DNA of 64,000 nucleotides from Lachnospiraceae bacterium V9D3004 (GTDB lineage: Bacteria; Bacillota; Clostridia; Lachnospirales; Lachnospiraceae), in assembly GCA_000621985.1 (NCBI GenBank), contig JHWW01000002.1, positions 310,001 to 374,000 of the forward strand, written 5' to 3'. The translations under genes and the position numbers were made by a program. Every line of letters starts with the position of its first letter. Position 1 is the first letter of the stretch. The notes beneath the pieces were generated by a model, which had not been told where the DNA came from, made no database searches, and saw only the letters and a program-made list of their open reading frames with translations. Of this stretch, positions 5,084-56,708 are shown piece by piece.

Positions 5084-5085
5084 GA

Positions 5086-5751: not shown

Positions 5752-5776
5752 CAAATTAAACGGAGGTATATAAAAT

Positions 5777-6013: not shown

Positions 6014-6017
6014 TGTT

Positions 6018-6431: not shown

Positions 6432-6453
6432 TATAAGGAACGGAGGTGTCGGA

Positions 6454-6999: not shown

Positions 7000-7014
7000 A
7001 TTCAGGAGGTATGT

Positions 7015-7632: not shown

Positions 7633-7635
7633 TGA

Positions 7636-10600
7636 ATGAAAAAAATTCTACTATCAATAATACTTGAGCTGTTTTTTTCAGTTATATTATTTTCCGGGAA
7701 TGCTACTGCGGGAACTTATGATAATGCGATAAAATATTATCAGACATATGGTGATTCCAAACTTGCAATGTTGAATGATAATGACGGATATATATATTTT
7801 TGTTCGGCAGGAAAAACTTCAACAGGATCGACAAAATATAAAACCGTTGGTTATAAAATAACGCTGCATGCGGACACTGAAAATGATACAGTGGAAGTAA
7901 AGCTCGGAGGAAGTATAATAAAAGACGTGTCCGAGATGGATCAGGGCGGGTATACGTATGTACTCAGAAGGGCAAAACTAAGCAGTCTTCAACTGCTTTT
8001 TAACGGGAATAATAAGATAACATGGAATCAGATATTCAGATGCCGGAATTCGTACGAATTCAATGCTATAATGACTGTTGAGAAAAACGGAAAGCAATTA
8101 TGCGGTACGGTGACGGAGAGTTCCGATAAAAGAAAACTTTCGGCAGCTTCTCCGGGCAATCTGTATCGTAAAGCAAATGATATAAAAAAAGCCGAAAAAT
8201 GGGCAAATCCAAGTGACCTCAACAGTTTTTTCGGGAAATATATAGATTTTGATCCTGTTAACGGAATTAAGATAGATTCAATGGATATCGCGAAAGGAGA
8301 CAATGTATATCATTCAGATGATGTATATTATGTAAAAAAAGATTCGGTTATTAAGCTTTCAATAAAATCATCGTTGAAAGATCAGGCAGGTGCAGATAAT
8401 AATTATCATCCGAATTATAATATTATCAATGCATCCTCAGGAGATAAAACTCAATTATTCAATATTTCTCAGGGGAAGACAAAAGGAAAATGTACCGGAG
8501 GACTGCTGGGCAAAACAGGTGGCGGAAACGATTTTCTCTCATATGTTGATGTCGTAAAAAATGATTGTACCGGCAGTGATGACAGCCTGAATTATTTTAA
8601 AAGCTGTGCGGAATACACATTTAATCTGAATGATTCAAAAAGCACCAATATAATTCCTGAAGCAAGAATATATTATGCTTCAAATTATCCGAAAAAGGAT
8701 GCTGAAAAAAAAGATCTTTGTGACGTGGTTGTCGATAGAAAGAAAGTGAAAACACTTGTATCCGATGCTAAAAGTCCGACCATTGATGCAAAGCAATATT
8801 TAACCAATATGGGAGGCGGATATATTCCGTTCACTGTTTGTGACAACGGATCAGGTATAAGAAAAATCAATATATATAAAAGTGACGGAACATTGTTGAT
8901 CACAAAAGATTACAGTAAAAACAGAACTACGGTTGTATCATCTGAAAATGATTATTATCTGTATGTGACAAACGGAATGCAGATATATATTACTGCTGAA
9001 GATAATGTCGGTAATGTGTCAAAAAGTTCTTATATAACTTTCTCGGTGCCGACAGCTCATACAGTTCAGGCAAGTGTGTCAAAGGGATTGAACGGATATA
9101 ACTGTAACAATGTCACTTCGTATGTATACGGCGGGAATACGGAGATCGCTTCTTTTGTCATTATGTCTGATGATGATGAAAATGATGCGAAAAAAAGAGT
9201 TGTGCTTGAATGCCTGGACGTAGCGGCAAAAACAATGCCGGCCGGATTGTACAGCTATGTTCATTCTATCGACCCTATGGGTATACTGGGAGCATTTAAA
9301 GACGGATCTTATAATTTTAATGTTATATCGGGAGGAAGATATGTGTCTTCCGAACCCTATGTATTTAATATCAGGAAAGATACGACGCCGCCAGAAGCCC
9401 GTTTTATTACGGGATGGGGAACAAATGGGTGGTTCAGGACTTATGCTTCATTTGCGCTTGAGGCTTCCGATAATTACAGTGGTCTTGATGGTGTCGATGT
9501 TGTCTGTGATTCTGAAATACTGCAGCACAGTTTCAGGAGAGAAGATGTGCCGGGTTATAAAGAATACAAAAGGTATACTTTATATAAAGAAGGTATAAAT
9601 GAGCTTGAGGCTGTGATCACCGATAAAGCCGGCAATACAAAAAAAGTAAGGGAAACCGTGAAAATAGATGCAACGCCTCCGGACTATGTACTGCCTGATG
9701 CATTCCTTGGAGCAAGCATAAAAAATGATATATGGATAACAAGAGAGCAATTCAAAAGCCAGATAATAATATCTGACGATCTGAGCGGTTTTAAGGAAGA
9801 TAAAGATTATTTTGTATTGTATTCAAAAAAAGACGGATGCACAAGACAGGTTGATGATAATAATATATACGGAATCGCTCTGCTTGATGATCATCATGTG
9901 AGATTCAGATTTGTCAATTCATATGCCAATACGATAAAAAGCGGGCAGTATATATACATGCTTGAGGCAATGGATAATGTTGATAACAACAAAATGATCA
10001 TTCTTAATCTGAATATTGACGCAGATCCTCCAAAAGCCGATCTAAAGACCGATGATCCATGGTCACCTGAAGACAGAAAAGGATATATTCATTTTTCGGA
10101 TGAACATTCGGGAATCGATTCGATCATTGTCATGTGTGACGGCGAAGAGACAGACAGAATATGCGGGATCGGGAAAAATGAATACAGTATGTATGTTGAT
10201 GTGTCGGACATACCGAAAGATATGCCGGAAGTTCACATTATCGTTACTGATAATGTCGGTAATTCAATGGATTACATGCCGCAGATCGATGAAAAGTTGT
10301 CTCTTACAGCTGAGATAATACGTCACAGTGACGGTGGAGAGCCTGTATTTTTTTCAGGAGAAAAAGGAGATTTGAATATATCGATAAAAGGAAAAGCCGA
10401 TCGCCTTGTTATATCTTATCCCGATGGAATGAGAGAATATGATAACGATATTTTATTAACTCCAAAAGAAACATATAATCAAAATCAGATATTTAATATT
10501 CCTCTTGACTATGAAAACGGTATCAGTGAGGTTGAAGTAAAGGCTTTCAGAAAGGGTAAATGCGTTACGGCGATCCCCGCTTTTGAAGTTACAGGAAAGC

Positions 10601-10641
10601 TTACGGACAGTATCAGAACAAGACTACGGGTCAGAGTGTAA
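7636..10641 (+). CDS. Large secreted Ig-like repeat protein of the Tad locus, putative pilus-associated adhesin
   Basis: 1001 residues with a clear signal peptide (about 1-26, ending TATAG). No catalytic motif is visible. The middle and C-terminal parts hold several Ig-like or cadherin-like beta-sandwich modules, recognisable by recurring 'DxVGN/DKAGN' turns followed by 'DATPP' or 'DADPP' linkers (near residues 453-460, 655-680, 775-803 and 870-876). No LPxTG sorting signal or C-terminal membrane helix is present, so the protein is either released or held by the pilus. It sits inside the operon, directly before the prepilin peptidase. That position suggests a tip or shaft-associated adhesin, which is an inference. 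Confidence 0.65.
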   Translation: MKKILLSIILELFFSVILFSGNATAGTYDNAIKYYQTYGDSKLAMLNDNDGYIYFCSAGKTSTGSTKYKTVGYKITLHADTENDTVEVKLGGSIIKDVSEMDQGGYTYVLRRAKLSSLQLLFNGNNKITWNQIFRCRNSYEFNAIMTVEKNGKQLCGTVTESSDKRKLSAASPGNLYRKANDIKKAEKWANPSDLNSFFGKYIDFDPVNGIKIDSMDIAKGDNVYHSDDVYYVKKDSVIKLSIKSSLKDQAGADNNYHPNYNIINASSGDKTQLFNISQGKTKGKCTGGLLGKTGGGNDFLSYVDVVKNDCTGSDDSLNYFKSCAEYTFNLNDSKSTNIIPEARIYYASNYPKKDAEKKDLCDVVVDRKKVKTLVSDAKSPTIDAKQYLTNMGGGYIPFTVCDNGSGIRKINIYKSDGTLLITKDYSKNRTTVVSSENDYYLYVTNGMQIYITAEDNVGNVSKSSYITFSVPTAHTVQASVSKGLNGYNCNNVTSYVYGGNTEIASFVIMSDDDENDAKKRVVLECLDVAAKTMPAGLYSYVHSIDPMGILGAFKDGSYNFNVISGGRYVSSEPYVFNIRKDTTPPEARFITGWGTNGWFRTYASFALEASDNYSGLDGVDVVCDSEILQHSFRREDVPGYKEYKRYTLYKEGINELEAVITDKAGNTKKVRETVKIDATPPDYVLPDAFLGASIKNDIWITREQFKSQIIISDDLSGFKEDKDYFVLYSKKDGCTRQVDDNNIYGIALLDDHHVRFRFVNSYANTIKSGQYIYMLEAMDNVDNNKMIILNLNIDADPPKADLKTDDPWSPEDRKGYIHFSDEHSGIDSIIVMCDGEETDRICGIGKNEYSMYVDVSDIPKDMPEVHIIVTDNVGNSMDYMPQIDEKLSLTAEIIRHSDGGEPVFFSGEKGDLNISIKGKADRLVISYPDGMREYDNDILLTPKETYNQNQIFNIPLDYENGISEVEVKAFRKGKCVTAIPAFEVTGKLTDSIRTRLRVRV

Positions 10642-10642
10642 T

Positions 10643-11281
10643 ATGGGATTGTTTTATAATTTCCGGTTTATTAAAAATGTTGTAATAAAGGATTCATCAT
10701 CAGGGAAAGATTTAAAGCTTATATCTTTGATGGGATATGTAGTATATGTTGTTACTTTTTTTGTGTTGATATTTTCATTAATCTGTGGAAAATACAATAT
10801 CGCTGTTTATATGTATTTTCTTATCTGGCTTTGGCAGATGGCATATGTTGATCATGTTACAGGTTATGTATATGACCGTATGACTGTAACGGGAATTATT
10901 CCTTTAGCACTCAGTATTGCATTGATAAATGACGGTGACATTTTGGTGATACTTAACCGGATCATATCATCACTTCCGATAATTATAATTATAATAATCC
11001 TTGGAAAAGCGTCTTTGATCGGTAGAGGAGATGTGGATGTTCTTATCATTGTATCGGAGATCAATTCGATGTATCTGATATCAGATGGTATATGTGATAT
11101 ATACAGAATATTTTTATTAAATATATGTTTTATATATTTGTCGGTAATACTGTTCGTTATTACTCATTGGAGAAGGATAATTTGGAGAAAAATGAAGCTT
11201 GACAGAAGTTATCCGATGATCCCCTCAATATATGCGGCTGCGGTAATAGGTGTTATATTATTCTTTACATTTAACTTCTAA
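10643..11281 (+). CDS. tadV: Prepilin peptidase of the A24 family (TadV/CpaA-like)
   Basis: 212 residues with about six membrane helices. The two catalytic aspartates of A24 GxGD peptidases are visible: the first in 'AYVDHVTGYVYDRM' (about residue 73), the second in 'GRGDVDVL' (about residue 130). It lacks the N-terminal methyltransferase part of PilD, as is usual for TadV/CpaA. It would cleave the leader from the small pilin encoded at 5777. The ATG at 10643 lies one base after the previous stop with no good ribosome binding site, implying coupled translation. A longer frame begins at 10583 but overlaps the preceding gene. Confidence 0.8.
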   Translation: MGLFYNFRFIKNVVIKDSSSGKDLKLISLMGYVVYVVTFFVLIFSLICGKYNIAVYMYFLIWLWQMAYVDHVTGYVYDRMTVTGIIPLALSIALINDGDILVILNRIISSLPIIIIIIILGKASLIGRGDVDVLIIVSEINSMYLISDGICDIYRIFLLNICFIYLSVILFVITHWRRIIWRKMKLDRSYPMIPSIYAAAVIGVILFFTFNF

Positions 11282-36354: not shown

Positions 36355-36422
36355 GTAACTGTTCAGCTCACAATGACATTATGAGGATAATAAAAAAATC
36401 GTAAGATGCGGAGAAATTGGCT

Positions 36423-38228
36423 ATGCAAAAAAACAAATTATTATACAATATCTTAACAAAAGTTGTAGTAGTGCTCATAACTTTCGGATTAACATATTCG
36501 CAGGCTTTATATTCATTTGACAAGATATTTGCCGATCCGTTGTATCAACAGCCTACAGCTGTAGACAAAAATATCTCGATCATCGCCATAGACGAAAAGA
36601 CACTGCAGGAATACGGTGATATCGGAAGCTGGGGACGAGACATACCCGCAAAACTTGTTGAGACTCTTAACGGTAATAGTGAATACGCGCCATCCGTTAT
36701 ATGCTTCGATGTTATGTATATAAGCGGCGGAGAGGCAGATGATGATAAGAGATTCGCGGAAGTTTGCGGTAATTACGATAATGTTATAACCGCAGCAAAT
36801 ATCGTGAAGAAGGCAGAGGTTACAGTTAATTCCGATAATAAACTTGTGGTGGATGATGATCATACCGAGATGGTGGAAGTTCCGTATGAAGCACTTCGCA
36901 AGGTGACGGAATACGGTTTTGCCAATACGGTTCAGGATACAGACGGTTATATCCGTTATGCCCGTATCACTGATCAGTATGAAGGAGAGGATATTGAATC
37001 GCTTGCTTACAAAGTATATGGTATGTACTGCGAAAAGACCGGAATGACTGTTGAGAAACCTGATACCGATGATTCAGGATTGTTTGGATTTACATATTCG
37101 GGAAAGAGTGGCGCATATGAAGTGATCTCATTATGTGATATTCTTTCCGGTAAAGTTGACAGCAGGGCATTTGCCGGAAAGATAGTAATGGTCGGTGCCT
37201 ATGCTCCCGGAATGCAGGATGCTTATAATGTACCGAATCAGAAGGGTACCCAGATGTACGGGGTTGAGATCCATGCAAACATTGTTGAAGCACTTCTTGA
37301 GAACAAGACCGGACTTCCGGTACCGGAACTTTTATATTCGGTCATTGTTACATTGATCGTACTGGCATTTATGATACTTGCTGAAAGATTCAAGATCCTG
37401 CCGGGAACGATAATTCTTGTTGTACTTATAGCTGCCGATATTATTACCGGTAAGATGCTTTATGGCAACGGACATATCATGAGGATAATCGAACTTCCGA
37501 TAATGTCTCTGATCGTATATGCTTATCAGCTGATATTCGGTTATCTTGAAGAACGGTTAAGAAGAAGAAAGACCGTTAACGCATTTAAAAAGTATGTTGC
37601 TCCGCAGGTTGTTGATACCATATCAAAACAGGGAGATTTCAATATCGTTCTCGGAGGCGAGAACAGACATATTGCGGTTTTGTTTGTTGATATCAGGGGA
37701 TTTACACCGTTATCCGAGAGCCTTGAACCGGAGCAGATAGTTGAGATCTTAAATGAATACCTTAATCTAACGACCAATTCAATATTCAAAAACGGAGGAA
37801 CTCTTGACAAATTTGTCGGAGACGCGACCATGGCGGTGTTCAATGCTCCTTTTGATCTCGATGATTATGTGTACAGAGCGGTATGCACTGCAAAAGATAT
37901 AGTTGACGGCAGTAAAGCACTTAATGATGAGCTTGAGAAGAAGTTCGGCAAGAGAGTGGGATTCGGTGTCGGAGTCAACTGCGGTAATGCAGTAGTAGGA
38001 AACATCGGTTGCGATTTCCGTATGGATTATACAGCTATCGGTGATACTGTTAATACCGCCGCAAGACTTGAGAGTAACGCAAAAGCGGCTCAAGTACTTA
38101 TAAGCGAGGCTGTCTATGAAGCCGTTAAGGACAGGATCGAAGTGTCGGAGGTGGGAGTGATCCCGCTTAAAGGAAAGAGTAACGGTGTGTTCGTATATTC
38201 ATTGGAAGACATACCGGGGAGAGAATAA
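36423..38228 (+). CDS. CHASE2-class III adenylate cyclase
   Basis: 601 residues. A first membrane helix (about 9-27) is followed by an extracellular CHASE2 sensor (about 30-290, with 'ISIIAIDEKTLQEYG' and 'VICFDVMYISGGEADDD'), three membrane helices (about 295-365) and a class III cyclase domain. Metal Asp residues are in 'FVDIRGFTP' (about 423) and 'KFVGDATMAVF' (about 467). The Lys before that motif and the Asp in 'MDYTAIGDTVN' are the adenine-selecting type, so cyclic AMP is the expected product. GGAG nine bases before ATG 36423 fixes the start. It heads a long run of co-directional signalling and surface genes. Confidence 0.9.
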   Translation: MQKNKLLYNILTKVVVVLITFGLTYSQALYSFDKIFADPLYQQPTAVDKNISIIAIDEKTLQEYGDIGSWGRDIPAKLVETLNGNSEYAPSVICFDVMYISGGEADDDKRFAEVCGNYDNVITAANIVKKAEVTVNSDNKLVVDDDHTEMVEVPYEALRKVTEYGFANTVQDTDGYIRYARITDQYEGEDIESLAYKVYGMYCEKTGMTVEKPDTDDSGLFGFTYSGKSGAYEVISLCDILSGKVDSRAFAGKIVMVGAYAPGMQDAYNVPNQKGTQMYGVEIHANIVEALLENKTGLPVPELLYSVIVTLIVLAFMILAERFKILPGTIILVVLIAADIITGKMLYGNGHIMRIIELPIMSLIVYAYQLIFGYLEERLRRRKTVNAFKKYVAPQVVDTISKQGDFNIVLGGENRHIAVLFVDIRGFTPLSESLEPEQIVEILNEYLNLTTNSIFKNGGTLDKFVGDATMAVFNAPFDLDDYVYRAVCTAKDIVDGSKALNDELEKKFGKRVGFGVGVNCGNAVVGNIGCDFRMDYTAIGDTVNTAARLESNAKAAQVLISEAVYEAVKDRIEVSEVGVIPLKGKSNGVFVYSLEDIPGRE

Positions 38229-38229
38229 A

Positions 38230-38247
38230 AGACTCGTTTTTGAGTCT
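38230..38247 (+). terminator. Weak hairpin after the cyclase gene
   Basis: AGACTC and GAGTCT around a GTTTTT loop. No T run follows, so any termination would be partial. Confidence 0.3.
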
Positions 38248-38286
38248 CGTACAATGAAAAACAAGGGGAAACGGAGGTACAGATAA

Positions 38287-39426
38287 TTGAATATTTTAAT
38301 CATTCCGGAGATCAATAACATTGATGAGAGCATAAAACTTGCCAAGGAGTGGAATCTGGGTTTTGAATATAATGATTTTTTTCTTCCCCAGATACTTGAT
38401 GACAAGGATGAAATAAGACGAAGAGTCGATATATATCGCGGACTTGGAAGAGATATGAGTAATGATACCATGCATGGTGCATTTCTTGATATTACCGTGC
38501 ACAGTGAGGATAAGCGGATAGTAAAAGTATCATCGGACAGGATTCATTCCTGTATGGATATTGCTCAGGAACTCGGAGTAAAAGGTGTTGTATTTCATAC
38601 CAATATCGTTCCTAATTTCCGTACGGAAACCTACCTTGATACGTGGGTAAAACGAAACGAAGAATATTGGAGAAAGCTGCTTGCGGAATATCCTGATCAG
38701 GAGATATATATAGAGAATATGTTCGATAAAGGTTATGACGAACTGAAGCGTCTCGGAGAGATGCTTGATGATGAGGAGAGATTCGGTGTATGTCTTGATT
38801 ATGCTCATGCTGTCGTATTCGGATGGGAGAGCAAGGAACAATGGGTAAAGGCGCTTGCTCCATACATAAAACATATGCATATTAACGATAATGATATGAG
38901 ATCGGATCTTCATTTGCCCGTAGGCTCCGGCGATATAAGCTGGGGAGATTACAACATATTCATGAGAAGGAATAATATCGACTGTTCCGTTCTTATAGAG
39001 TGTTCCGGACATGAAAGACAGAGAGAGTCACTTGAATATCTCAAGAGCAGACATTTCTTCCCGTTCGAGATGACAAAGGAAGATGTGGACAGGATGAATG
39101 ATAATGCCAAAGAAGTATTCAAGAATTATAATGTTCAGGTTGTACAGATAAGTAACGTTCTTTATAAAGTTATCAATCCGGATAATGTGGTAAATATAGA
39201 TAACCTTAAGGTGGATCTGAGAGAATGTGCGCTAATAACATCAGGCGTTACATACGATGAAGATGATAAATGTATCGGAAAGATATACTATATATTCACC
39301 AGCGTCCTTGACGATAATGCAATAAAGGAATGCCGTCAGAAAGCTGAAGCGGAATATGGTAAGGCTCTTGTATTTGAGCATATCGAGAGGAAATATGATC
39401 CTTCATCTTCTATATATATGCTTTGA
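38287..39426 (+). CDS. Sugar phosphate isomerase/epimerase-like TIM-barrel protein with unknown C-terminal domain
   Basis: 379 residues, TTG start with GGAGG nine bases upstream. Residues 1-265 show the xylose-isomerase-like/AP endonuclease 2 barrel: 'VVFHTNIVPNF', 'EIYIENMFDKG', 'GVCLDYAHAVVFGW', 'IKHMHINDND' and 'VLIECSGHE' provide the metal-binding His, Glu and Asp residues. The last 110 residues (after 'FFPFEMTKEDVD') are not part of this fold and I do not recognise them. The neighbours are signalling enzymes, which gives no substrate hint. It may be a metal-dependent isomerase or a hydrolase; the C-terminal part resembles no known effector domain. Confidence 0.75.
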   Translation: MNILIIPEINNIDESIKLAKEWNLGFEYNDFFLPQILDDKDEIRRRVDIYRGLGRDMSNDTMHGAFLDITVHSEDKRIVKVSSDRIHSCMDIAQELGVKGVVFHTNIVPNFRTETYLDTWVKRNEEYWRKLLAEYPDQEIYIENMFDKGYDELKRLGEMLDDEERFGVCLDYAHAVVFGWESKEQWVKALAPYIKHMHINDNDMRSDLHLPVGSGDISWGDYNIFMRRNNIDCSVLIECSGHERQRESLEYLKSRHFFPFEMTKEDVDRMNDNAKEVFKNYNVQVVQISNVLYKVINPDNVVNIDNLKVDLRECALITSGVTYDEDDKCIGKIYYIFTSVLDDNAIKECRQKAEAEYGKALVFEHIERKYDPSSSIYML

Positions 39427-39459
39427 TAAAAAACTTGTGATCATAGTGGAGGAAATGCG

Positions 39460-40941
39460 ATGTTAAGCCAGAACGACTTGAGTGAGATTGTCAGAATTGG
39501 AATATTGCTTACAACCGAAAAAGATCATTCCAAACTGATCAGCATGATACTTACAAAAGCTATGGAATTAACCAATTGTGATGCGGGAACATTGTACCTG
39601 TATAATAATAATGCACTTGAATTCAGGATAATGAAGACCAAATCACTCGGAATAAGCAGAGGTGAGGACGGAGATGTTATAGATCTTCCGCCGGTTCCGA
39701 TGAAAGAAGAGAGTGTCAGTGCGTATTCGGCTATCCACAGGGAGCTTATCAATATTGAAGATGTATATTATAATGACAGATTCGATTTTACGGGACCAAG
39801 ATCTTATGACAAACTGATCGGTTACAGAACAAAATCCATGCTTGTGGTTCCTATGGTCGATATGGATGATGTGGTTATAGGTGTAATGCAGCTGATCAAT
39901 TCGCTTGATCCGAAAAGAAGCGGCGAACCGTTTTCCGAAGATATAATTGTTCCTTTTGATGTTGATATGGAATTCGTGCTGCAGTCACTCGGATCCCAGG
40001 CAGCCGTTGCGGTATCCAACATGCTGTATATGGAAGAAGTGAAGCGCCAGATGCATTCGTTCGTGGATGCATTTGCGATGGCTGTTGATATGAGGACACC
40101 TTATAACGGTTCACATACAAGAAAGGTCGCAAGTTACGCTGTTATGGTCGCTGACGAGATCAATAAAATGTATCGTGAAGGTAAGATCGACGAATATTTT
40201 GATGATAACCGCAGAGAACAGTTGGAACTTGCCGCATCTGTTCATGATATAGGCAAGATGATCGTCCCTCTTGGGGTGATGAATAAAGCGACCAGACTTG
40301 ACGACGGACTTGAGAAGCTGGAATTTCGTTATCGTCTGCTAGCAACGTATTATGAACTTGATCATTATAAAGGAAAACTTACAAAGGAAGAATATGAAGA
40401 GATTGAAAATGAACTGAAAGATATTCTGGAACTTATAAGAGATGTCAATGGCAGAGGTTTTGTTGACGATGATACAATGGCAAGGATAAAAGAAATATCC
40501 GTTAAGAAATATACTACCGAAGGCGGAGAGGTGATTCCTTATCTTACGGAATACGAAGCAGACTGTCTTATGGTAAGAAAGGGTACTCTTACCGATGAAG
40601 AGAGACAACAGATGGAGAGTCATGTTGTAATGACAAAGAATATTCTTGATAAGGTTCATTTTAATTCACATTACAGGAATGTTACGAAATTTGCGGCAAC
40701 TCATCACGAATATCTTGACGGAAGCGGTTATCCCGACCATCTTACCGGTGAACAGCTTGAGCTTGAAAGCCGTATCCTTACTGTTGTCGATATATACGAT
40801 GCACTTACTTCGACTGACAGGCCGTATAAGAAACCGATACCGCAGCCCAAGGCATTTGCAATACTTCACAGTATGGCCGAAGAAGGTAAGATTGAGGACA
40901 GAATCGTATGCATTCTTGAAGATGCACTTGCGGAAATGTAA
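39460..40941 (+). CDS. GAF-HD-GYP domain protein, probable cyclic-di-nucleotide phosphodiesterase
   Basis: 493 residues: a GAF sensor domain (about 5-190) and an HD-GYP domain. The metal-binding motif is 'ASVHDIGKMIVP' (about 259-270) and the signature is 'HHEYLDGSGYP' (about 415), with the GYP intact. Between the HD motif and the next conserved His ('MESHVVMTKNI') lies an insert of about 115 residues with helical charged sequence, longer than in standard HD-GYP proteins. The family hydrolyses cyclic di-GMP, sometimes cyclic GMP-AMP. No membrane segment. It follows the cyclase and TIM-barrel genes at short spacing and precedes the FecR gene. Confidence 0.9.
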   Translation: MLSQNDLSEIVRIGILLTTEKDHSKLISMILTKAMELTNCDAGTLYLYNNNALEFRIMKTKSLGISRGEDGDVIDLPPVPMKEESVSAYSAIHRELINIEDVYYNDRFDFTGPRSYDKLIGYRTKSMLVVPMVDMDDVVIGVMQLINSLDPKRSGEPFSEDIIVPFDVDMEFVLQSLGSQAAVAVSNMLYMEEVKRQMHSFVDAFAMAVDMRTPYNGSHTRKVASYAVMVADEINKMYREGKIDEYFDDNRREQLELAASVHDIGKMIVPLGVMNKATRLDDGLEKLEFRYRLLATYYELDHYKGKLTKEEYEEIENELKDILELIRDVNGRGFVDDDTMARIKEISVKKYTTEGGEVIPYLTEYEADCLMVRKGTLTDEERQQMESHVVMTKNILDKVHFNSHYRNVTKFAATHHEYLDGSGYPDHLTGEQLELESRILTVVDIYDALTSTDRPYKKPIPQPKAFAILHSMAEEGKIEDRIVCILEDALAEM

Positions 40942-41005
40942 GTTTATGTGTTATATTTACTCTGTATAGGTTTGAAAATTATGTAAAAAGAGGAATGATG
41001 CCCCT

Positions 41006-42346
41006 ATGAACAAGAAGATTATTGCAGCGTGTGCGGCAGCCGGCGGAGTTGTAGTTTTGGTACTGGTTTTATTTTTTACAGTATTCTTCAATACGACGGA
41101 TAGCTACAGAGAGATAAAGATATATAAGATAGAAGGCTCTACTAACGTAGAAAGATCCGGAGATCAGGCTATCGATGCTTATGAGAATATGCAGTTGATG
41201 AACGAAGACCTTGTCAATGTTCTTGCTGAAAGCTTCACACAGCTTAAGATGGATGAGGACAAATATGCTCTGCTTGAGCCCCTTACTTCGATCAGGCTTG
41301 AAGCTACCGGAGATGCGAAGGACAGTAACACAAAGATTACTTTAGAGAAGGGGTCTGTCGTTAATCATCTTGACAATCCTTTAAGTGAGAAGTCTTCATA
41401 CGAAGTCAATACTCCGAATTCAACCATGGCTGTCAGAGGAACAACATTCAAAGTTGAGAGTTATGTTGATGCCGACGGAGTGTCACATACTGTTCTTGAA
41501 GTCATAGACGGTAATGTTGAGACATATCTTGTCAATCCCGACGGAAGTAAAACCGAAGGAAAAGTATTTACCGCTGGTCAGAAGATAATTATCAAGAGTG
41601 ATGATAAGGAGACAGTATTTGAATTCGAATCCAAAGTCAATCTTAAAGAATTGAATCTCAAGGAACTTGAATTCTTAAAAGTCCATTTTAATGAAGAATA
41701 TTATTGTACGGAACAGGAGATCAATGACGCTATAGATTTCCTGCGTAATGCTGATGCCGAAAAGCAGGATAATACAGACGGCGATAGCAATACCGAAAAC
41801 GGTAATACCGACAATACTGTTGTTAATCAGGATGAAAGCAACATCGATACTGATAATAATACAGATAACGAAGAAGAAACAACGTACGTTGACGACAACG
41901 ATGAGCCCGACTCTGATGACAATGATGCTGATGTTGACACCGAAAGTAATGATAATAAGGACAACAGCTCGGATAAGTCGGATGATAATGACAAAAAAGA
42001 CGATAAAACAGACAAAGACAAGAAAGATAAGACAGACGATAAAGATAAGAAAGACAATACTGACGATAAGGACACTACCGATAAGAAAGATACTACGGAT
42101 AATAAAGATACTTCAGAAAATAAAGATACCAAAACCGATACAACCGACAACAAAGATAATGATAAAAAAGAAACCGAATATACCGTGACTTTCAAATACA
42201 ATAATGAAGTGTTCGCAAGTCAGACCGTTAAGGCGGGGGAAAAAGCCAAGGAACCTACCCTCAGACCTACGGCAAACGGTAAGTGGAATTATAGTTTTGA
42301 TAAAGCAGTGGAAGATAATATTACTGTAGAATGGGAAAAAGAATAA
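41006..42346 (+). CDS. Membrane-anchored FecR-domain protein with acidic low-complexity stalk
   Basis: 446 residues. A membrane helix near 8-29 is followed by a FecR-type domain (about 45-200; 'ITLEKGSVVNHLDNPL', 'YEVNTPNSTMAVRGTTF'), a charged linker (about 247-390) made almost only of Asp, Lys, Thr, Asn and Glu, and a C-terminal 'YTVTFKYNNEVFASQTV' beta-module resembling InlB-type B repeats. The FecR domain faces the outside here, unlike iron-uptake FecR, and no sigma factor gene is adjacent. CHASE2 cyclases and FecR proteins are often neighbours, so it may sense or scaffold a surface signal. Inference only. Confidence 0.8.
   Translation: MNKKIIAACAAAGGVVVLVLVLFFTVFFNTTDSYREIKIYKIEGSTNVERSGDQAIDAYENMQLMNEDLVNVLAESFTQLKMDEDKYALLEPLTSIRLEATGDAKDSNTKITLEKGSVVNHLDNPLSEKSSYEVNTPNSTMAVRGTTFKVESYVDADGVSHTVLEVIDGNVETYLVNPDGSKTEGKVFTAGQKIIIKSDDKETVFEFESKVNLKELNLKELEFLKVHFNEEYYCTEQEINDAIDFLRNADAEKQDNTDGDSNTENGNTDNTVVNQDESNIDTDNNTDNEEETTYVDDNDEPDSDDNDADVDTESNDNKDNSSDKSDDNDKKDDKTDKDKKDKTDDKDKKDNTDDKDTTDKKDTTDNKDTSENKDTKTDTTDNKDNDKKETEYTVTFKYNNEVFASQTVKAGEKAKEPTLRPTANGKWNYSFDKAVEDNITVEWEKE
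41760..42180. repeat. Low-complexity Asp-Lys-Thr coding repeat in the FecR gene
   Basis: Degenerate codon repeats of GAC/GAT/AAA/AAG/ACT encode the linker of the FecR protein. The opposite strand gives an open Ser/Leu-rich frame that is a by-product. The tract may vary in length between strains. Confidence 0.7.
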
Positions 42347-42368: not shown

Positions 42369-42893
42369 GTGGAGACAATTAAGAAAATATTACCAAAACT
42401 TATCCTGCCGGCAGTATGGATACTCGTTGCGGCAGGAGGGGTTCTTCTCGGAATGAACTGGAATAATATATTCGGGAAAGGATCGGAAGAAAATGTGATT
42501 AAGGTTGGTAATGTTGAAGATGATGGCGCTGTTGACTGGGAAGGAAATCATTCCGTATACAAAGGCGAGACTGAGCAGAAAAACATACAGTTGCCCGGTT
42601 TTGACAGAATATGGTTTAAGGCAGGCGTAAAAGAACAGAAGGTCAATCTTCATAATCCCGAGGAAAACAACTGTTATTTTAAGATGACACTGTATCTTCC
42701 GGATGGTACAAAGATATGGACATCGGATCTTCTTGCCCCCGGAAAAGGATTGTATGATATTACACTGGATAAGGAACTTGAAGAAGGAGAATATGAACAA
42801 TCCGTACTCAAGTATGAATGTTTTACTTATGATGATAATCAGTCACAGCTTAACGGAGCTGAAATGAAATTAACGATTAAGGTAGTAAAGTGA
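42369..42893 (+). CDS. Membrane-anchored beta-domain protein, unknown function
   Basis: 174 residues, GTG start with AAGGAG seven bases upstream. A single N-terminal hydrophobic helix (about 8-28) anchors a soluble domain with strands 'IWFKAGVKEQKVNLHNPEEN', 'CYFKMTLYLPDG', 'APGKGLYDITLDKELEEGEY'. I recognise the pattern as a Lachnospiraceae surface protein type with no assigned role. It overlaps the next ribosome binding site and is co-translated with the small secreted proteins behind it. It could be the membrane base for them. No enzyme motif is seen. Confidence 0.65.
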   Translation: METIKKILPKLILPAVWILVAAGGVLLGMNWNNIFGKGSEENVIKVGNVEDDGAVDWEGNHSVYKGETEQKNIQLPGFDRIWFKAGVKEQKVNLHNPEENNCYFKMTLYLPDGTKIWTSDLLAPGKGLYDITLDKELEEGEYEQSVLKYECFTYDDNQSQLNGAEMKLTIKVVK

Positions 42894-42904
42894 GGAGGAA
42901 GAAT

Positions 42905-43462
42905 ATGAAAGCGGGATCAAAGCTTATTTCGGGATTAATGATGACAGCGATAATGCTTGTGTCTTTTGGCGGCGGACTTGCTTATGCGGCCGGAGGTTCT
43001 TATGATCAAAAGGATACTACTGCGTCTACGGAAGTCGCTTTTACGCAGACTGACACCACGTATACGGTATCTATTCCGGATAAGATATCACTTAAAGAAG
43101 ACGATTCTGTTACGGAAGATATTGAGATAACGAATGCTAATATCAGGAAAGAGTATGCGGTTCAGGTAAAGATCAAAGAAAGTGAACTGAATACGGTTGC
43201 CTCCACTTCCGGAAAATATATATCATTAGTTGCTGCCGGAAAAGGAACTGTTGCATCATGGATAACACATGGATCAGTGGCTCTTGATGGCAGTGCGATC
43301 CTATATGTGGAAAAAGATAGTCCTGCAAGTGATATGAAAACTACGATAGAATTTTCGAAACCTTATCTGGTGGAATCCGGTAATTTAACCGAAGGAGAGA
43401 TTCCTGATGGTAATTATACAGGTACTCTTAATTTTGAGATTGAATGCAATTTAAAATATTGA
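42905..43462 (+). CDS. Small secreted beta-sandwich surface protein, copy 1
   Basis: 185 residues from ATG 42905, five bases after GAGGAGG. Signal peptide (about 1-30, ending 'GGGLAYAAG') and a beta-domain that opens 'YTVSIPDKISL' and closes 'GNYTGTLNFEIEC'. The same bookends occur in the proteins at 43502, 44214 and 44841, so these four are paralogous. There is no LPxTG, lipobox or membrane tail. The shared motif resembles surface proteins of Firmicutes that pack as repeated subunits; a fibre-subunit role is a guess. Confidence 0.7.
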   Translation: MKAGSKLISGLMMTAIMLVSFGGGLAYAAGGSYDQKDTTASTEVAFTQTDTTYTVSIPDKISLKEDDSVTEDIEITNANIRKEYAVQVKIKESELNTVASTSGKYISLVAAGKGTVASWITHGSVALDGSAILYVEKDSPASDMKTTIEFSKPYLVESGNLTEGEIPDGNYTGTLNFEIECNLKY

Positions 43463-43501
43463 TTATATATTAATTTAATTATCCTAACCCGAGGTGATCA
43501 T

Positions 43502-44200
43502 ATGAAATTAAAAAGTAAGATATTAACTTTATCAGCTATGTGTTTAACGATGATAACTGCATTCGGATTCGGTTATACCCGGGCGGCTACAGATGATAGC
43601 TATTATACTGTATCAATACCGGAATCGGTTGATCTGACTCCAAAGTCATATACGAACTCAGAGAGATATGAGATGGATATAACTGCAAGGAATTGTAATA
43701 TTACAAACGGATATTATCTTGAAGTATCCTTAAGCAGTGAGAATTTTAGTATGGTTCCGCATCCTGATGATTATCAGAATGATCAAATGATATGGGCATT
43801 AAGACTGGAAGCTAAAGATTTGAATCAGGTGGATCCCATGTATACATTCTTAGGCTGCAAGAAGGTCGGTTATAACAGTAATTCCGTGCAACCCAATAGC
43901 CAGGAAAAAGAGTATCTTAACATTAATGACAGCGAAGCTTTGAGGAATGCCGAAACTTTAGGAGGAATACAACTTCCCCAGAGACTGCAACTTTTAAGAG
44001 TCGATACCGGAAATGCAACTGATGATACGGGGCTTACCGCAAAGTTGTATCTGTACAGACCGGTACAACCTAATCCTGATTATACTGGAAATGATTACAG
44101 TATAAAGCCTTATCTTGATGAATATAAGAATTCCGTTGGTACTTTCATCAATACAGATGGATTGGTGTTTCATATCAGCTGTATCAAGATAGAACAGTAA
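43502..44200 (+). CDS. Small secreted beta-sandwich surface protein, copy 2 (divergent)
   Basis: 232 residues with a signal peptide (1-28) followed by 'YYTVSIPESVDLTPKSY' and a 'CNITNGYYLEVSL' strand. It is longer and more diverged than copies 1 and 3, and its end is 'DGLVFHISCIKIEQ'. GAGGTGATC precedes the ATG at nearly the right spacing. It lacks sorting motifs. Two cysteines are present that are not shared with all copies. Unknown function. Confidence 0.65.
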   Translation: MKLKSKILTLSAMCLTMITAFGFGYTRAATDDSYYTVSIPESVDLTPKSYTNSERYEMDITARNCNITNGYYLEVSLSSENFSMVPHPDDYQNDQMIWALRLEAKDLNQVDPMYTFLGCKKVGYNSNSVQPNSQEKEYLNINDSEALRNAETLGGIQLPQRLQLLRVDTGNATDDTGLTAKLYLYRPVQPNPDYTGNDYSIKPYLDEYKNSVGTFINTDGLVFHISCIKIEQ

Positions 44201-44213
44201 GAGGAGGAGTAAT

Positions 44214-44792
44214 ATGAAAGCGAGATCTAAGGTTATATCGGGTTTGCTTATGACTGCAATAATGATTAGTTCTTTTGGCGGCGGATATGTTTACGCCGAA
44301 AATTATTCCGAAACCGGTGGAGTTGATCAGACGGCTGTAACAAGTGTAAGTTTCACTCAAAATGATAACACTTATACTATATCCATACCTGAAAAGATTG
44401 AATTGAAAGACGAGGATACGGTAACTGAGGAGATTGCGGTAACCGAGTCTGACATCAGGAACGGATATGAAGTCAAGATCGGTGTTGATTCATCCTGTTA
44501 TAAAAGAGAAAACGGGCAGGGTGTATCATATATTGAATTGAAGTCTGAAGATAAAAATAATGACGGCAGTGCAAAATATACCCTGTACTCTCAAGTGACT
44601 CCTGAGGGAAGCAATGCGATAACCGATGAATCGATACTGGTGGTCACAAACGCATCTTTAGATTCAGAGAAAAAGACGGAATTGGTATTTGGAGCTCCGG
44701 TTTATTCGGATAATGGTAATCCGGGAATCATTCCGGTCGGAACGTATAAAGGCACTGTGGTGTTTAATATTGAATGTGTCGCACAGCAGTGA
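44214..44792 (+). CDS. Small secreted beta-sandwich surface protein, copy 3
   Basis: 192 residues. The first residues 'MKARSKVISGLLMTAIM' are almost the same as copy 1 ('MKAGSKLISGLMMTAIM'), and 'YTISIPEKIELKDEDTVTEE' parallels copy 1's 'YTVSIPDKISLKEDDSVTED', indicating a recent tandem duplication. The end is 'GTYKGTVVFNIEC'. Signal peptide about 1-29. GAGGAGGAG lies six bases before the ATG. The gap from copy 2 is only 13 bases, so it is in the same transcript. Confidence 0.7.
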   Translation: MKARSKVISGLLMTAIMISSFGGGYVYAENYSETGGVDQTAVTSVSFTQNDNTYTISIPEKIELKDEDTVTEEIAVTESDIRNGYEVKIGVDSSCYKRENGQGVSYIELKSEDKNNDGSAKYTLYSQVTPEGSNAITDESILVVTNASLDSEKKTELVFGAPVYSDNGNPGIIPVGTYKGTVVFNIECVAQQ

Positions 44793-44840
44793 TTGTAATC
44801 TGATATCATTATTAGAACGGATCACAGGGAGGAATATAAT

Positions 44841-45302
44841 ATGTATATAAAAAAGGCGATAAGAGGTTTCGTTGCGGGATTGATAACAGCCGGCTTTATA
44901 CTTGGAAGCGTATCGGTATATGCAGCCAATCAGACTTCTGCAAGTACTGAAGTTTCATTCTTAAAAGGAGCTGAATATACACTTTCGGTGCCTGCGACAA
45001 CGACAATAACATTCGGTAGTGAGAATACTGATATAGGTGATATAGTTATTACCGGAACATTGGCATCAGACAAAGTGGTCAAGGTAACTGCCATCAAGAA
45101 TGAGTTTACGTCAAATAACGGCCATTTTGATTTCAATCTTTTGTCTAACGGAAGTGAGTTCACTGAGGCTACATGGAATTCTTCGGATGCATCATCCGGG
45201 AAAAAGGTCGGACTTACCGTTAATATACCTAAGCTGACATGGGATGAAGTTCGTGCGGGTGATTACAGTGGCAGTATAACATTTAAGGCAGAAGTACAGT
45301 AA
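44841..45302 (+). CDS. Small secreted beta-sandwich surface protein, copy 4 (short)
   Basis: 153 residues: signal peptide (about 1-29) and one beta-domain starting 'YTLSVPATTTITFG' and ending 'GDYSGSITFKAEVQ'. It keeps the opening and closing motifs but lacks the middle charged loops of copies 1 and 3. GGGAGGA precedes the ATG. Same operon as its neighbours (48-base gap). Function unknown; the set of four may form a composite surface layer or fibre. Confidence 0.65.
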   Translation: MYIKKAIRGFVAGLITAGFILGSVSVYAANQTSASTEVSFLKGAEYTLSVPATTTITFGSENTDIGDIVITGTLASDKVVKVTAIKNEFTSNNGHFDFNLLSNGSEFTEATWNSSDASSGKKVGLTVNIPKLTWDEVRAGDYSGSITFKAEVQ

Positions 45303-45383
45303 TTGTATTATTATGATAAGACGGACAGGTTAGGGTTTTTACATGAATGACTTGTCAGTTATATGATTACGGGAGGAGTTTAT

Positions 45384-46724
45384 ATGCGGGATTATTATAA
45401 AAGACCGGCAGGCATATTATTATGTGCCGTAATGTCAATAGTGTGTGTTTTTGGTAATGTATCTGCGGGAACAAGCAACAATACTACTCTTCAGGTTACC
45501 GTTCCTGATTCACATACTATTAATATTGAGATATCAGGAAAGGGAAGTCTTACCGTTGAGCGCGATACATATACTGATAATAAGAGTATACCAGTCGCGC
45601 GACTAAGTGATGTTGAATACACGGTCACTCCGGATATCGGCTACGAGCTTGGCAAACTTGAATATGACGGAAGTGATGTTACCTCACAGATGAGTGGTAA
45701 TACATTCAGAGCACCTTCGCTTTCCGGAGATGTTACTGTAAGAGCAGTATTCAATAAGATGCTTACAACATGTACAATAAGTCCTGAAGCGAATACGAAC
45801 GGATTCTATTCGGAGGATGTTACCATAACACCTCCTCAGGGATATTCGATACGCCTTGGAGATAATGGTGACTGGGACAGTTCGCTTACCATCACTTCTT
45901 CTACAGATGTAGAGGTGTACCTTATGTCTCCTTCGGGAAATATTGGTGAAAAGATATCTCTCGGAACTATCAATATTGATAAAACAGCTCCTTATGTTTC
46001 GGATCAGGCAGGTGGAATAACAGTCGATAATAATGTATGGAAAGAATTTATAAGTACGATAACTTTCGGACTTTTGTTTGGTGAGTCAAAGACTGCTTCG
46101 ATCAATGCAGAAGATCCCGAAAGCGGCATTGAGTCGTATAATTATTATATATCAGATACAGCACTTAATATCGATCAGGTAAAAGCTTTAACAACGTGGA
46201 GTGAAGGCAATTCATTTTCAATAACCGGTGAAGATGCCGAAAATAAGATAATATACGCAAAGATAACCAATAAGGCCGGTATTTCGCTTTATATCAGTTC
46301 CGACGGAATGGTATTCGATACTGTTGCACCTCAGATCAGCGTTTCGGATTCTTCGGATAATTACAGCGATGAACCGATGAAAGTGGAAGTGATCGATAAT
46401 TCTCTTGATAGTGTTACATTGAACGGAAAGAGCGTTGATATCTCAGGTAAAAAGGCTGAGTTTACCGTATCTCCGTCAGATGATGACAGTTATGAGATAA
46501 TAGCAAAGGATAAGGTCGGTAACAGTAGTAAAGTTACATTCTCTGTTCATGAAACATGGTTGAGAGACGGTATAAGTAAGACAGGCAATTATAAACTAAA
46601 AAAAGACAAAGGATATAAACTTGGTAACGGTTCATGGACTGTTGATGAAGATGGTTGTACATATAAGGGAAATATTCAGTTCTATGTACCGTCGGGTAAG
46701 AGTTACAGCATAGTCAAATCATAG
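45384..46724 (+). CDS. Secreted protein with B-repeat-like and Ig-like domains
   Basis: 446 residues from ATG 45384, behind GGGAGGAG; the in-frame ATG at 45363 has no such site. A signal peptide leads into a beta-repeat ('VEYTVTPDIGYELGKLEYDG', 'VTVRAVFNK'), then Ig-like modules with 'DKTAPYVSD', 'EDPESGIESYNYY' and 'DTVAPQISV' linkers, and a short C-terminal region with 'GNIQFYVPSGKSYSIVK'. The modules resemble those of the Tad-locus protein at 7636 in architecture, though not identically. It probably completes the surface cluster. No sortase motif. Confidence 0.65.
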   Translation: MRDYYKRPAGILLCAVMSIVCVFGNVSAGTSNNTTLQVTVPDSHTINIEISGKGSLTVERDTYTDNKSIPVARLSDVEYTVTPDIGYELGKLEYDGSDVTSQMSGNTFRAPSLSGDVTVRAVFNKMLTTCTISPEANTNGFYSEDVTITPPQGYSIRLGDNGDWDSSLTITSSTDVEVYLMSPSGNIGEKISLGTINIDKTAPYVSDQAGGITVDNNVWKEFISTITFGLLFGESKTASINAEDPESGIESYNYYISDTALNIDQVKALTTWSEGNSFSITGEDAENKIIYAKITNKAGISLYISSDGMVFDTVAPQISVSDSSDNYSDEPMKVEVIDNSLDSVTLNGKSVDISGKKAEFTVSPSDDDSYEIIAKDKVGNSSKVTFSVHETWLRDGISKTGNYKLKKDKGYKLGNGSWTVDEDGCTYKGNIQFYVPSGKSYSIVKS

Positions 46725-53621: not shown

Positions 53622-53726
53622 ATCCGTTGGATTAGTATGCAAATTTCACAAAAAATCACAAACTTGTATTGTAAAATGTGGTTATTTGTTAACAATTTGA
53701 CATACAGTTTTGTTAGAAAGGAGCAA

Positions 53727-56708
53727 ATGACAGACATGTCGAAGATTAAAGAAGTATTAAGCAAAAAGATTGTAATGGTACCTCTTATTATCGTTGCGCT
53801 GGTCCTTGTTGTTGTTGTCTGGAAGTTAATTGCGAACAGTTCGGGTGATTATTCAGACAAATACGAGGGTCAGGATCTTTCCGCTGATGTTGAAGGTATA
53901 GCCAGAGACGATACGTATAACAAATATCTTCAAAAGCATGAGGGTGCAAAGAGCCCGGATGCTGTTGTTGACGTTGACATCTTCAACTATACTGATGCAA
54001 GTACCGGAGTGTCGGTGCTTAATGATATCGACGGAGAGGACAGAGTCATACAATCTGATGAGACAGGTTTTATTGAATGGGAGGTTAATATTCCCGAAGA
54101 GGGAATGTACAGCCTCTATTTTGAGTACTATCCTGTTGAATCAAGAGGTATAGATATTGAGAGGGCTGTATATATAAATGATGAGATGCCGTTTTACGGT
54201 GCCGATGCCATAACTTTCAGCAGAGTCTGGTCGGATACTTCAGATATCGTAAAAGATAATCGCGGTAACGATATCAGACCTACACAGGGTGAAGCGCCCA
54301 TGTGGCAGTCTTCTTATGCAAAGGATTATATGGGATATCATATCAATCCTTATCAGTTCTATTTCAAATCAGGCATGAACAAACTTAAACTCGTAGGAGT
54401 TAACGAACCGCTTGTTATCAGAAAACTCGTTATAAAGAATCAGGAGACTATTCCTACATATGAGGAATACATGAAGAATGTTGACGGAAAATTTGCGGAT
54501 GCTTCGGGATCTGATGTGATCAAGATCCAGGGTGAGGCTTCACAGAGACGTTCTTCACCTTCACTTTATCCGAACAGTGACAGAGCTTCGGCGATAACCG
54601 AACCGTACAGTGCTTCGCTTATTCTTATGAATAAGATCGGAGGTAACCAGTGGCGTGTTGCCGGTGACTGGGTAGAGTGGGATTTTGATGTTCCAAAGGA
54701 TGGCCTTTACACTATTTCCGTAAAGGGAAGACAGAATTATAATCGTGGATTCGTATCAAACCGTTCCGTAACAATAGACGGAGAGTGTCCTTTTGAAGAA
54801 GCAAGACTTATGGCATTCCAGTTTGGCAATAACTGGCAGATGAATACCTTGCAGGATGATAGCGGCAATCCTTACAAATTTGCTCTTACTGCCGGAACTC
54901 ATACGATAAGACTCGAAGTTACTCTCGGTAATCTTGGAAGTATACTTACCGATCTTAACGACAGTGTGTTCCGTCTTAATTCCATGTACAGAAAGATCCT
55001 TGTACTTACTGGTGCGGATCCTGATGAATTCAGAGATTACAAGATCGATCAGGTATATCCGGAAGTTATCAAGGGTATGGATGTTGAATGTAAGAGACTT
55101 TATAAGATAGTTGATGAACTCATTGAATATTCAGGTGAGAGAGGATCTCAGGTTTCTTCGATACTTACCGTTGCAGCACAGCTTGAGAGATTCGTTGAGC
55201 GTCCCGACAAGATCCCGAAGACACTTGCTAACTTCAAAGAGAATGTCAGTGCGATCGGTACGGGAATCAACTCACTCAGTGAGGCACCGCTCGATGTTGA
55301 CTTCCTTGTAGTTGAGTCTGCGGGAATGGAACTGCCCGAGTGCGAAGAGTCCTTCCTTGAAAGTGCAATGCATGAGATCAGAGTGTTTATTTCATCGTTC
55401 CTTGTTGATTACACTTCACTTGGTAATATATATGAAGATACCGATTCTTCCATAGATTGCTGGATCCTTTCAGGTAGAGATCAGAGTACGATCCTCAAGA
55501 CTATGATCGATGATTCATTTGTTCCGGAATACGGTATCGGAGTTAACGTAAAACTTATTGATGCAACAACACTTCTTCCTGCAGTTGTTGCGGGAACAGG
55601 TCCTGACGTTGCTCTTACGGTGGCACAGACCGAGCCCGTCAACTATGCACTGCGTAATGCGGCTGTAGACCTTACACAGTTTGATGACTGGGATGAGTGG
55701 AAAGCCAATGTGCTTGATAAAGAATATTATCACAGTTCATGGTTGTCATATGAATTCAACGGAGGCGTATATGCGCTTCCGGAGACACAAAACTATAACG
55801 TTCTGTTCTACAGGAAGGATATCCTTGATGAGCTCGGACTCAAAGTTCCGGAAACATGGCAGGAACTTATAGAGATACTTCCTACGATAACAAATAATAA
55901 CCTTCAGGTCGGTATCCCGAGTACAGAACGTAAGGTTGGTAATACGGCTAATCCGGATCTTGCCAATTATTTCTGCCAGCTGTATCAGAGAGGCGGCAAG
56001 CTTTATTCGGATGATCAGCAGTCGGTTGCCATCGACAGCGAACAGGCTATTGAAGCATTTGAATATTTCACAAAACTGTTTACCAATTACAAAGTACCTA
56101 CAAGTTACGATTTTGTTAATCGTTTCAGGTCTGGTGAGATGCCTATAGGTATTCAGGACTTCTCGAACTACAACACGCTCGTTGTATTCGCTCCCGAGAT
56201 CAAGGGTCTCTGGAACTTTGCTCTCGTTCCGGGTTATGAGCGTACCAATGAAAAGGGAGAAAAATACATCGACCGACAGGTACAGTCATGGGGTCAGTGT
56301 TCGATGATCCTTAACAAGACTAACGGTGAACAGAAGTATGACCTTGCATGGAAGTTCTTAAAATGGTGGATAAGCTCCGATACACAGGTAAGATTCGGTC
56401 GTGAACTTGAGAGTGTCATGGGTGCTTCCGCAAGATATGCAACCGCCAATAAAGTAGCGTTTGAACAGCTTTCATGGAGCAAGAAAGACCTCGATGTACT
56501 TAAGGAACAGTGGGATTGGGCATTCGGTGTTCCTGAGATCGCCGGCGGTTATTACACATCACGTCACATTACCAATGCGATACGTAAAGTAATGAATGAC
56601 AATGAAGATCCGAGAGAGACGATTCTTGATTACACAAGAACGATCAATGACGAGATTGAGAAGAAGAGGATTGAGTTCGGATTACCGGTTAACAGCGATA
56701 AAGATTAA
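53727..56708 (+). CDS. Large membrane-anchored ABC solute-binding protein with two N-terminal beta-sandwich domains
   Basis: About 993 residues. An N-terminal hydrophobic helix (about 16-36), with no lipobox, probably anchors it outside the membrane. Two similar CBM-like beta-sandwich modules follow (about 90-250 and 265-430; 'YINDEMPFYGADAITFSRVW' parallels 'TIDGECPFEEARLMAFQFGN'), then a helical spacer, then a type I solute-binding domain (about 585-975, with 'DATTLLPAVVAGTGPDVAL', 'FNGGVYALPETQNYNVLFYR', 'QDFSNYNTLVVFAPEIKGLW'). The binding domain suggests uptake of long carbohydrate chains. The frame opens at 53637, and the ATG at 53727 or 53736 is the likely start; AAAGGAG fits neither ideally. 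No substrate is assigned. Confidence 0.8.
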   Translation: MTDMSKIKEVLSKKIVMVPLIIVALVLVVVVWKLIANSSGDYSDKYEGQDLSADVEGIARDDTYNKYLQKHEGAKSPDAVVDVDIFNYTDASTGVSVLNDIDGEDRVIQSDETGFIEWEVNIPEEGMYSLYFEYYPVESRGIDIERAVYINDEMPFYGADAITFSRVWSDTSDIVKDNRGNDIRPTQGEAPMWQSSYAKDYMGYHINPYQFYFKSGMNKLKLVGVNEPLVIRKLVIKNQETIPTYEEYMKNVDGKFADASGSDVIKIQGEASQRRSSPSLYPNSDRASAITEPYSASLILMNKIGGNQWRVAGDWVEWDFDVPKDGLYTISVKGRQNYNRGFVSNRSVTIDGECPFEEARLMAFQFGNNWQMNTLQDDSGNPYKFALTAGTHTIRLEVTLGNLGSILTDLNDSVFRLNSMYRKILVLTGADPDEFRDYKIDQVYPEVIKGMDVECKRLYKIVDELIEYSGERGSQVSSILTVAAQLERFVERPDKIPKTLANFKENVSAIGTGINSLSEAPLDVDFLVVESAGMELPECEESFLESAMHEIRVFISSFLVDYTSLGNIYEDTDSSIDCWILSGRDQSTILKTMIDDSFVPEYGIGVNVKLIDATTLLPAVVAGTGPDVALTVAQTEPVNYALRNAAVDLTQFDDWDEWKANVLDKEYYHSSWLSYEFNGGVYALPETQNYNVLFYRKDILDELGLKVPETWQELIEILPTITNNNLQVGIPSTERKVGNTANPDLANYFCQLYQRGGKLYSDDQQSVAIDSEQAIEAFEYFTKLFTNYKVPTSYDFVNRFRSGEMPIGIQDFSNYNTLVVFAPEIKGLWNFALVPGYERTNEKGEKYIDRQVQSWGQCSMILNKTNGEQKYDLAWKFLKWWISSDTQVRFGRELESVMGASARYATANKVAFEQLSWSKKDLDVLKEQWDWAFGVPEIAGGYYTSRHITNAIRKVMNDNEDPRETILDYTRTINDEIEKKRIEFGLPVNSDKD

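Follow-up and report, generated by a model that had tools for sequence, protein, structure and literature searches.

Here, we describe a putative fiber operon in a 64,000-nucleotide stretch of the genome of Lachnospiraceae bacterium V9D3004 (assembly GCA_000621985.1, contig JHWW01000002.1, positions 310,001 to 374,000; hereafter, the window). The operon encodes a membrane-anchored protein (A), four secreted proteins (S1 to S4), and a last protein with an immunoglobulin (Ig)-like part, which we refer to as the base. A sequence-only reading of the locus had described four secreted proteins behind a membrane-anchored protein and a FecR protein and ahead of an Ig-like protein, and this order holds, with all genes on the forward strand. 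From A to the base, consecutive genes are 13 to 60 bases apart or overlap slightly, and most gene starts are preceded by a good ribosome-binding site. The base gene is the last one ahead of folE, and its translation probably starts at 45384 and not at 45363 because GGGAGGAG sits right ahead of the second ATG. No Pfam or NCBIfam family matched A or the S proteins. As had been stated, the proteins of the window are, by inspection, without a sortase motif, and no sorting signal is present in its base; yet relatives of the base do have sorting signals.

All four S proteins share the opening strand (YTVSIP in S1 and S2, YTISIP in S3, and YTLSVP in S4). The closing GxYxGTxxFxxE motif, which had also been ascribed to all four, is present in copies 1, 3, and 4 (GNYTGTLNFEIE, GTYKGTVVFNIE, and GDYSGSITFKAE) and absent from copy 2 (GTFINTDGLVFHIS). 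In shuffle tests on the mature parts, the pairs S1-S3 (z = 18.8), S1-S4 (5.8), S2-S3 (5.1), and S3-S4 (5.0) stood out, while S2-S4 (0.6) and S1-S2 (2.4) did not reach significance; S2 joined the family by profile with an E value of about 1e-54, for a profile that had included S2. Judged by sequence, S1 to S4 are a real family, beyond chance similarity. For copies 1 and 3, the signal peptides had been called almost identical and taken as evidence of a recent duplication. This overstated their likeness, as they agree at 21 of 28 residues and at 65 of 84 bases; moreover, the mature parts are just 41% identical and, therefore, the duplication is old rather than recent. The four proteins are also not equivalent: copy 2 looks tip-like, and copy 4 falls in a distinct S2-type subfamily.

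Table 1. Features of the operon, in positions of the window
Feature	Coordinates	Strand	Basis
A: membrane-anchored, N-terminal transmembrane helix and one extracellular Ig-like domain; proposed assembly factor	42369-42893	+	AlphaFold2 model of L083 homologue; pairing with S
S1: secreted pilin-like subunit with N-terminal donor-type segment; alternative ATG at 42905	42890-43462	+	Profile homology; fold of S1-type homologue
S2: secreted S protein, 232 residues; candidate tip subunit (inferred role)	43502-44200	+	Sequence
S3: secreted pilin-like subunit, S1 paralogue	44214-44792	+	Profile homology, identity
S4: secreted pilin-like subunit, S2-type subfamily	44841-45302	+	AlphaFold2, PDB fold matches
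Base-type protein: N-terminal strand, divergent InlB B-repeat, OmpL47/Ig-like part	45384-46724 (open reading frame opens at 45363)	+	Open reading frame, domain searches, ribosome-binding site
Candidate donor strand of S1, STEVAFTQ	43025-43048	+	Hydrophobic alternation before YTVSIP
Candidate donor strand of S3, VTSVSFTQ	44337-44360	+	Family alternation pattern
Candidate donor strand of S4, STEVSFLK	44943-44966	+	Unstructured in own monomer model; family pattern
Donor-type N-terminal strand of base, NTTLQVTV	45480-45503	+	S4-base read-through model; pattern in 14 bases

Predicted folds and the N-terminal strand

Two AlphaFold2 models were made on in-frame read-throughs of neighboring genes, in which stop codons were read as residues; this is a modeling device and makes no claim about translation. 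In the model of S4 with the N terminus of the base, residues 43 to 154 of S4 form an Ig-like fold, mostly with a predicted local distance difference test (pLDDT) score of 89 to 97. The strands stop at strand F (residues 140 to 154) and strand G is missing, giving a predicted incomplete Ig fold. The N-terminal segment of S4 itself is unstructured in this model, and base residues 212 to 221 (SNNTTLQVTV) are modeled as a strand, in a block with a pLDDT of about 62. Using Foldseek against the PDB, the pilin CooA (4hji) was the first match (E = 9.2e-5; template modeling score of 0.57 to 0.59 by target) and the adhesin CfaE (2hb0) the third (E = 7e-4); lower matches included CfaB fusions, donor-strand-complemented EcpA, and self-complemented CsuA/B, amid PapD-family chaperones, whose fold is likewise Ig. 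Because the CooA alignment has 204 columns and S4 only 154 residues, the alignment very likely crosses the linker and takes in the base strand. Based on this alignment length rather than on coordinates, we suggest with moderate confidence that the base strand sits in the donor position in the groove of S4. Structure prediction, which the sequence-only reading had proposed as a check, gave a confident S fold, while the apparent donor-strand insertion comes from one read-through model of medium confidence.

The second model combines the homologues of A and of an S1-type protein from locus L083. Here, A has a complete Ig domain of seven strands (residues 73 to 167) with a pLDDT mostly above 92, and the S1-type protein has a pilin-like fold with a pLDDT above 90 over most of the domain; its N-terminal segment is not a strand. 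The best match of this model was a chain of the CFA/I chaperone-tip adhesin complex, and with a predicted template modeling (pTM) score of 0.46, the relative placement of the domains is unreliable.

The segment ahead of the opening strand has a distinct pattern in small S proteins. Among 34 non-redundant ones, hydrophobic residues make up 58% at positions −10, −8, −6, and −4 before YTVSIP versus 15% at the positions between, and none of 20,000 within-sequence shuffles reached this. In 14 tip-type S domains, the corresponding values are 16% and 30%, i.e., the alternation is absent. In 14 bases, chosen by operon position and with segments aligned by hand, every protein has hydrophobic residues at two positions four residues apart, one of which is the alignment anchor; with the anchor kept fixed, 0 of 20,000 permutations reached the observed alternation. 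S2 of the window has only about six residues from the signal peptide to YTVSIP and is without a donor strand; therefore, if donor strands act as in pili, S2 would only accept a strand and should be the tip, making it the candidate tip subunit of the window.

Occurrence of the operon in other genomes

A profile of A had matches in 76 of 299 Lachnospiraceae genomes, a number that takes in a second type of A gene; by our count, about 46 of the matches are strong, and the weak ones cover just the basic N terminus and the membrane helix. With the extracellular domain of A as query, a search of 398 genomes from the whole phylum matched 10, two of them weakly, and an S gene lies directly behind A in five of the nine matched genomes other than the window genome. 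A scan of named genomes with a three-sequence alignment gave 20 A loci, including Faecalicatena, Blautia, Enterococcus malodoratus, and Ruminococcus bromii. In 19 of these 20 loci, A is flanked by S genes, so that the gene arrangement, for which the sequence-only reading had proposed to look elsewhere, recurs and the pair reaches beyond the Lachnospiraceae.

The fuller order is a large protein tailed by an S domain, A, one to three S genes, and the base. At least 11 of the 20 named loci have a large protein with a terminal S domain immediately upstream of A, and the S domain lies no more than 40 residues from the end in 14 of 18 large S-domain proteins. Bases of relatives have a T-rich strand after the signal peptide (e.g., NTTLQVTVPDSHT, TTVIKTTVPSSHT, and TTTLKTSVPSNHT), and most carry at their end a sorting signal, of TGD type or LPRTND, together with a membrane helix. 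The smallest base, that of E. malodoratus, has 114 residues with little beyond the signal peptide, the strand NQTTIDLVIP, a linker, and the LPRTND anchor.

These comparisons bear on the possibility that the S proteins are free secreted or matrix adhesins, i.e., monomeric Ig-like proteins with a flexible-linker N terminus, and that the operon is a mere set of surface proteins. The confident monomer fold, the diverged sequences, the window base without an anchor, and the fact that no fiber has been observed are all consistent with this idea. We nevertheless consider it distinctly unlikely given the strict N-terminal alternation, which most tip-type domains have lost, the conserved pairing with A, and the minimal E. 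malodoratus base, in which the strand and the wall anchor are the only recognizable mature features.

A is also found in other settings. Behind the second type of A gene, which reached 97.4% with A in hhalign (L048, L050, L052, L053, L059-L061, L063, L065-L067, L069, L071, and L072), lies one secreted protein of ∼350 residues that starts with VxLPT...F.LDPxGLI, and many of these loci adjoin glycan or surface genes. We considered the ∼350-residue partner as an S relative and detected no similarity. In a third setting (L074, L076, L080, and L081), A occurs with secreted proteins carrying VTVPTxFAFVVNGTLD and with very large adhesins; L074 and L080 also have sortase-like proteins.

Upstream of A in the window, genes for a CHASE2-cyclase, a TIM-barrel protein, a GAF-HD protein, and FecR lie on the same strand, the FecR gene (41006-42346) being supported by Pfam (E = 6.7e-9). 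CHASE2-adenylate cyclase, GAF-HD phosphodiesterase-like, and FecR genes adjoin the A-S genes both in the window (36417-42346) and at L045 from another genus (5255-11125), which suggests that A-S regulation is tied to cyclic nucleotides. Elsewhere in the window, positions 3034 to 11281 hold a Tad-type-like pilus set encoding a CpaF-like ATPase, two TadB/C-like membrane proteins, and a prepilin peptidase-like protein together with a 1001-residue Ig-rich secreted protein. Positions 53637 to 56708 encode an unusually long protein of 1023 residues, the C-terminal part of which is like an ABC-transporter sugar-binding lipoprotein, with permease genes downstream.

A proposed donor-strand fiber and its comparison with known systems

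We propose that the operon makes a Gram-positive adhesive fiber by donor-strand complementation, with A as a membrane-tethered assembly factor, and consider this proposal probable, though well short of certain. We are more tentative about, and stop just short of favoring, the wider proposal of a widespread monoderm pilus class that would use chaperone-usher-type pilins and donor-strand exchange, have no usher or PapD, be assembled by A, and have a sortase-anchored base with a donor-type strand in most relatives. In the proposed mechanism, S proteins would be exported via Sec with an incomplete Ig fold, as supported by prediction; because the chain stops at strand F, a groove would be left open. 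In fiber-forming S proteins, the alternating strand ahead of strand A would insert into the next subunit's groove. The tip would have a groove and no donor strand, as in S2 of the window and the large multi-domain S-tailed protein of relatives, while the donor-type strand of the base would close the last groove and tether the fiber, with a sortase link to peptidoglycan in most relatives. A, with its Ig domain outside, would hold subunits until exchange and so stand in for chaperone and usher in a cell with a single membrane. For the proposed fiber of the window, A and the membrane-anchored FecR protein are candidate holders.

We favor a fiber because the S proteins have a pilin-like fold without the last strand and an N-terminal donor-type strand, tips mostly lack this strand, bases have a strand and an anchor, and the operon is conserved. 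In this argument, the S fold, the free N-terminal segment, the Ig fold of A, and the formation of the base strand come from prediction, while the operon, the alternation, the loss of the segment in tip-type domains, and the wall anchors of relatives come from comparison. From these, we infer polymerization, the order tip-S-S-base, and the assembly role of A. Accordingly, the suggestion in the sequence-only reading that the four proteins could be subunits of an undescribed surface fiber fits best with the fold, the donor-type strand, and the operon, but four equivalent subunits do not fit.

Several observations weigh against the fiber. The window base lacks a sorting signal, the operons at L044-L047 and L082 have a single S gene and no recognized tip or base, and in 3 of the 14 tip-type S domains, a strand-like stretch lies slightly farther upstream. 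In the S4-base fusion, which exists only by reading stop codons as residues, the base strand has a pLDDT of about 62, the whole-model pTM is 0.56, and the strand is placed by alignment length. Ig/pilin folds are widespread, so that likeness in fold need not imply polymerization, and PapD-like chaperones are also among the Foldseek matches. Finally, no specific structural match was found for A, whose role in assembly is a proposal.

In the literature searched, with subscription papers and preprints outside the scope, we found no description of such a system. Gram-positive donor-strand fibers are known in the form of TasA, and two-membrane bacteria are known to have pili of chaperone-usher-type subunits. 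If the proposal is correct, a minimal donor-strand pilus is encoded in one operon by gut Clostridia and some Enterococcus. This would reveal what the usher is really needed for, provide a simple in vitro assembly system consisting of a subunit and an anchored peptide, and point to many adhesins that are so far unannotated in common gut commensals.

WxL/WxLIP clusters resemble the A-S operon in having small and large proteins with a common domain and a membrane-anchored Ig-like partner, and AlphaFold2 has been reported to insert a hairpin strand of DUF916 into WxL (PMC10599100). By analogy, A could be a WxLIP-type protein that stabilizes one S protein each via a strand, and small S and S-tailed proteins would form a wall complex and not a polymer; the similar operon logic, i.e., a small domain-only protein, a large protein with the domain at its C terminus, and the membrane-anchored partner, fits this idea. 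We consider such a complex unlikely, although less so than free adhesins. On the basis of profiles, we rejected membership in WxL/WxLIP. The S proteins have no profile similarity to 14 WxL domains (hhalign 2%), no W-x-L motif, and no PF13731 match, and A has none to DUF916 (hhalign 0.2%). Moreover, A has a single Ig domain and an N-terminal transmembrane helix, whereas WxLIP consists of DUF916, DUF3324, and a C-terminal transmembrane helix. Also, the donor-type strand belongs to the S and base proteins, and E. malodoratus holds true WxL clusters separately.

TasA and TapA of Bacillus subtilis establish that donor-strand fibers exist in Gram-positive bacteria, and TapA has been proposed to supply the first donor strand (PMC9674648), as the base would in the proposed S fiber. 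Gram-positive origin, Sec export, an N-terminal donor strand, and a separate protein with the starter strand would be common to both. However, we find it highly improbable that the S operon is a relative of this system, with its jelly-roll subunit and starter protein, despite the same class of mechanism: the top PDB folds listed are chaperone-usher pilins and chaperones and do not include TasA, the SipW peptidase was not seen in the operon, and Peptidase_M73 matched weakly (E = 0.0068) in only 1 of 61 members. Conversely, the TasA system is without an A-type protein, a sortase-anchored base, or an S-tailed tip.

Sortase-assembled pili of the Spa and Pit types share with the S operon the sorting signals of most relatives' bases, and sortases are present in all four genomes searched. 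In contrast to the subunits of those pili, no sorting signal or covalent-linkage motif was noticed in the S subunits. Inspection of the alignment showed their chains to stop with the last beta strand, and TGD/LPRTND-type signals are confined to bases.

Likeness in sequence to chaperone-usher pilins is marginal but one-sided. Against the PDB, the S profile matched CsuE (E = 0.0045; best domain, 0.034), CS17 (0.022), and Afa/Dr adhesins (about 0.05 to 0.08), with one repetitive surface protein above these matches and unrelated proteins such as Hsp70 below. Recurrent Pfam near-matches among the 61 members included DUF4402 (five), SCPU (three), and Fimbrial (two), and one homologue lies just over the SCPU cutoff (22.7 versus 22.4 bits). 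We rejected A as a PapD relative, as a PapD_N near-match (E = 0.086) occurs in 1 of 17 members and no chaperone is among the fold matches listed for A. The outer-membrane usher (PF00577) and the two-domain PapD-type chaperone (PF00345) were found in neither the window genome nor three other carriers, while the E. coli control was positive for both. Thus, the S operon differs from chaperone-usher systems in having no detected usher or PapD in these four genomes and a one-domain membrane-tethered Ig protein instead, in a base that is usually linked to the wall by sortase, and in its only marginal sequence homology. It resembles their alpha (CfaB/CfaE of CFA/I and CooA of CS1) and archaic (CsuA/B and SCPU) pilins in the predicted fold with an open groove at strand F, the N-terminal donor-type strand, a tip without such a strand, and an operon that encodes the tip, the subunits, and an Ig-fold accessory protein.

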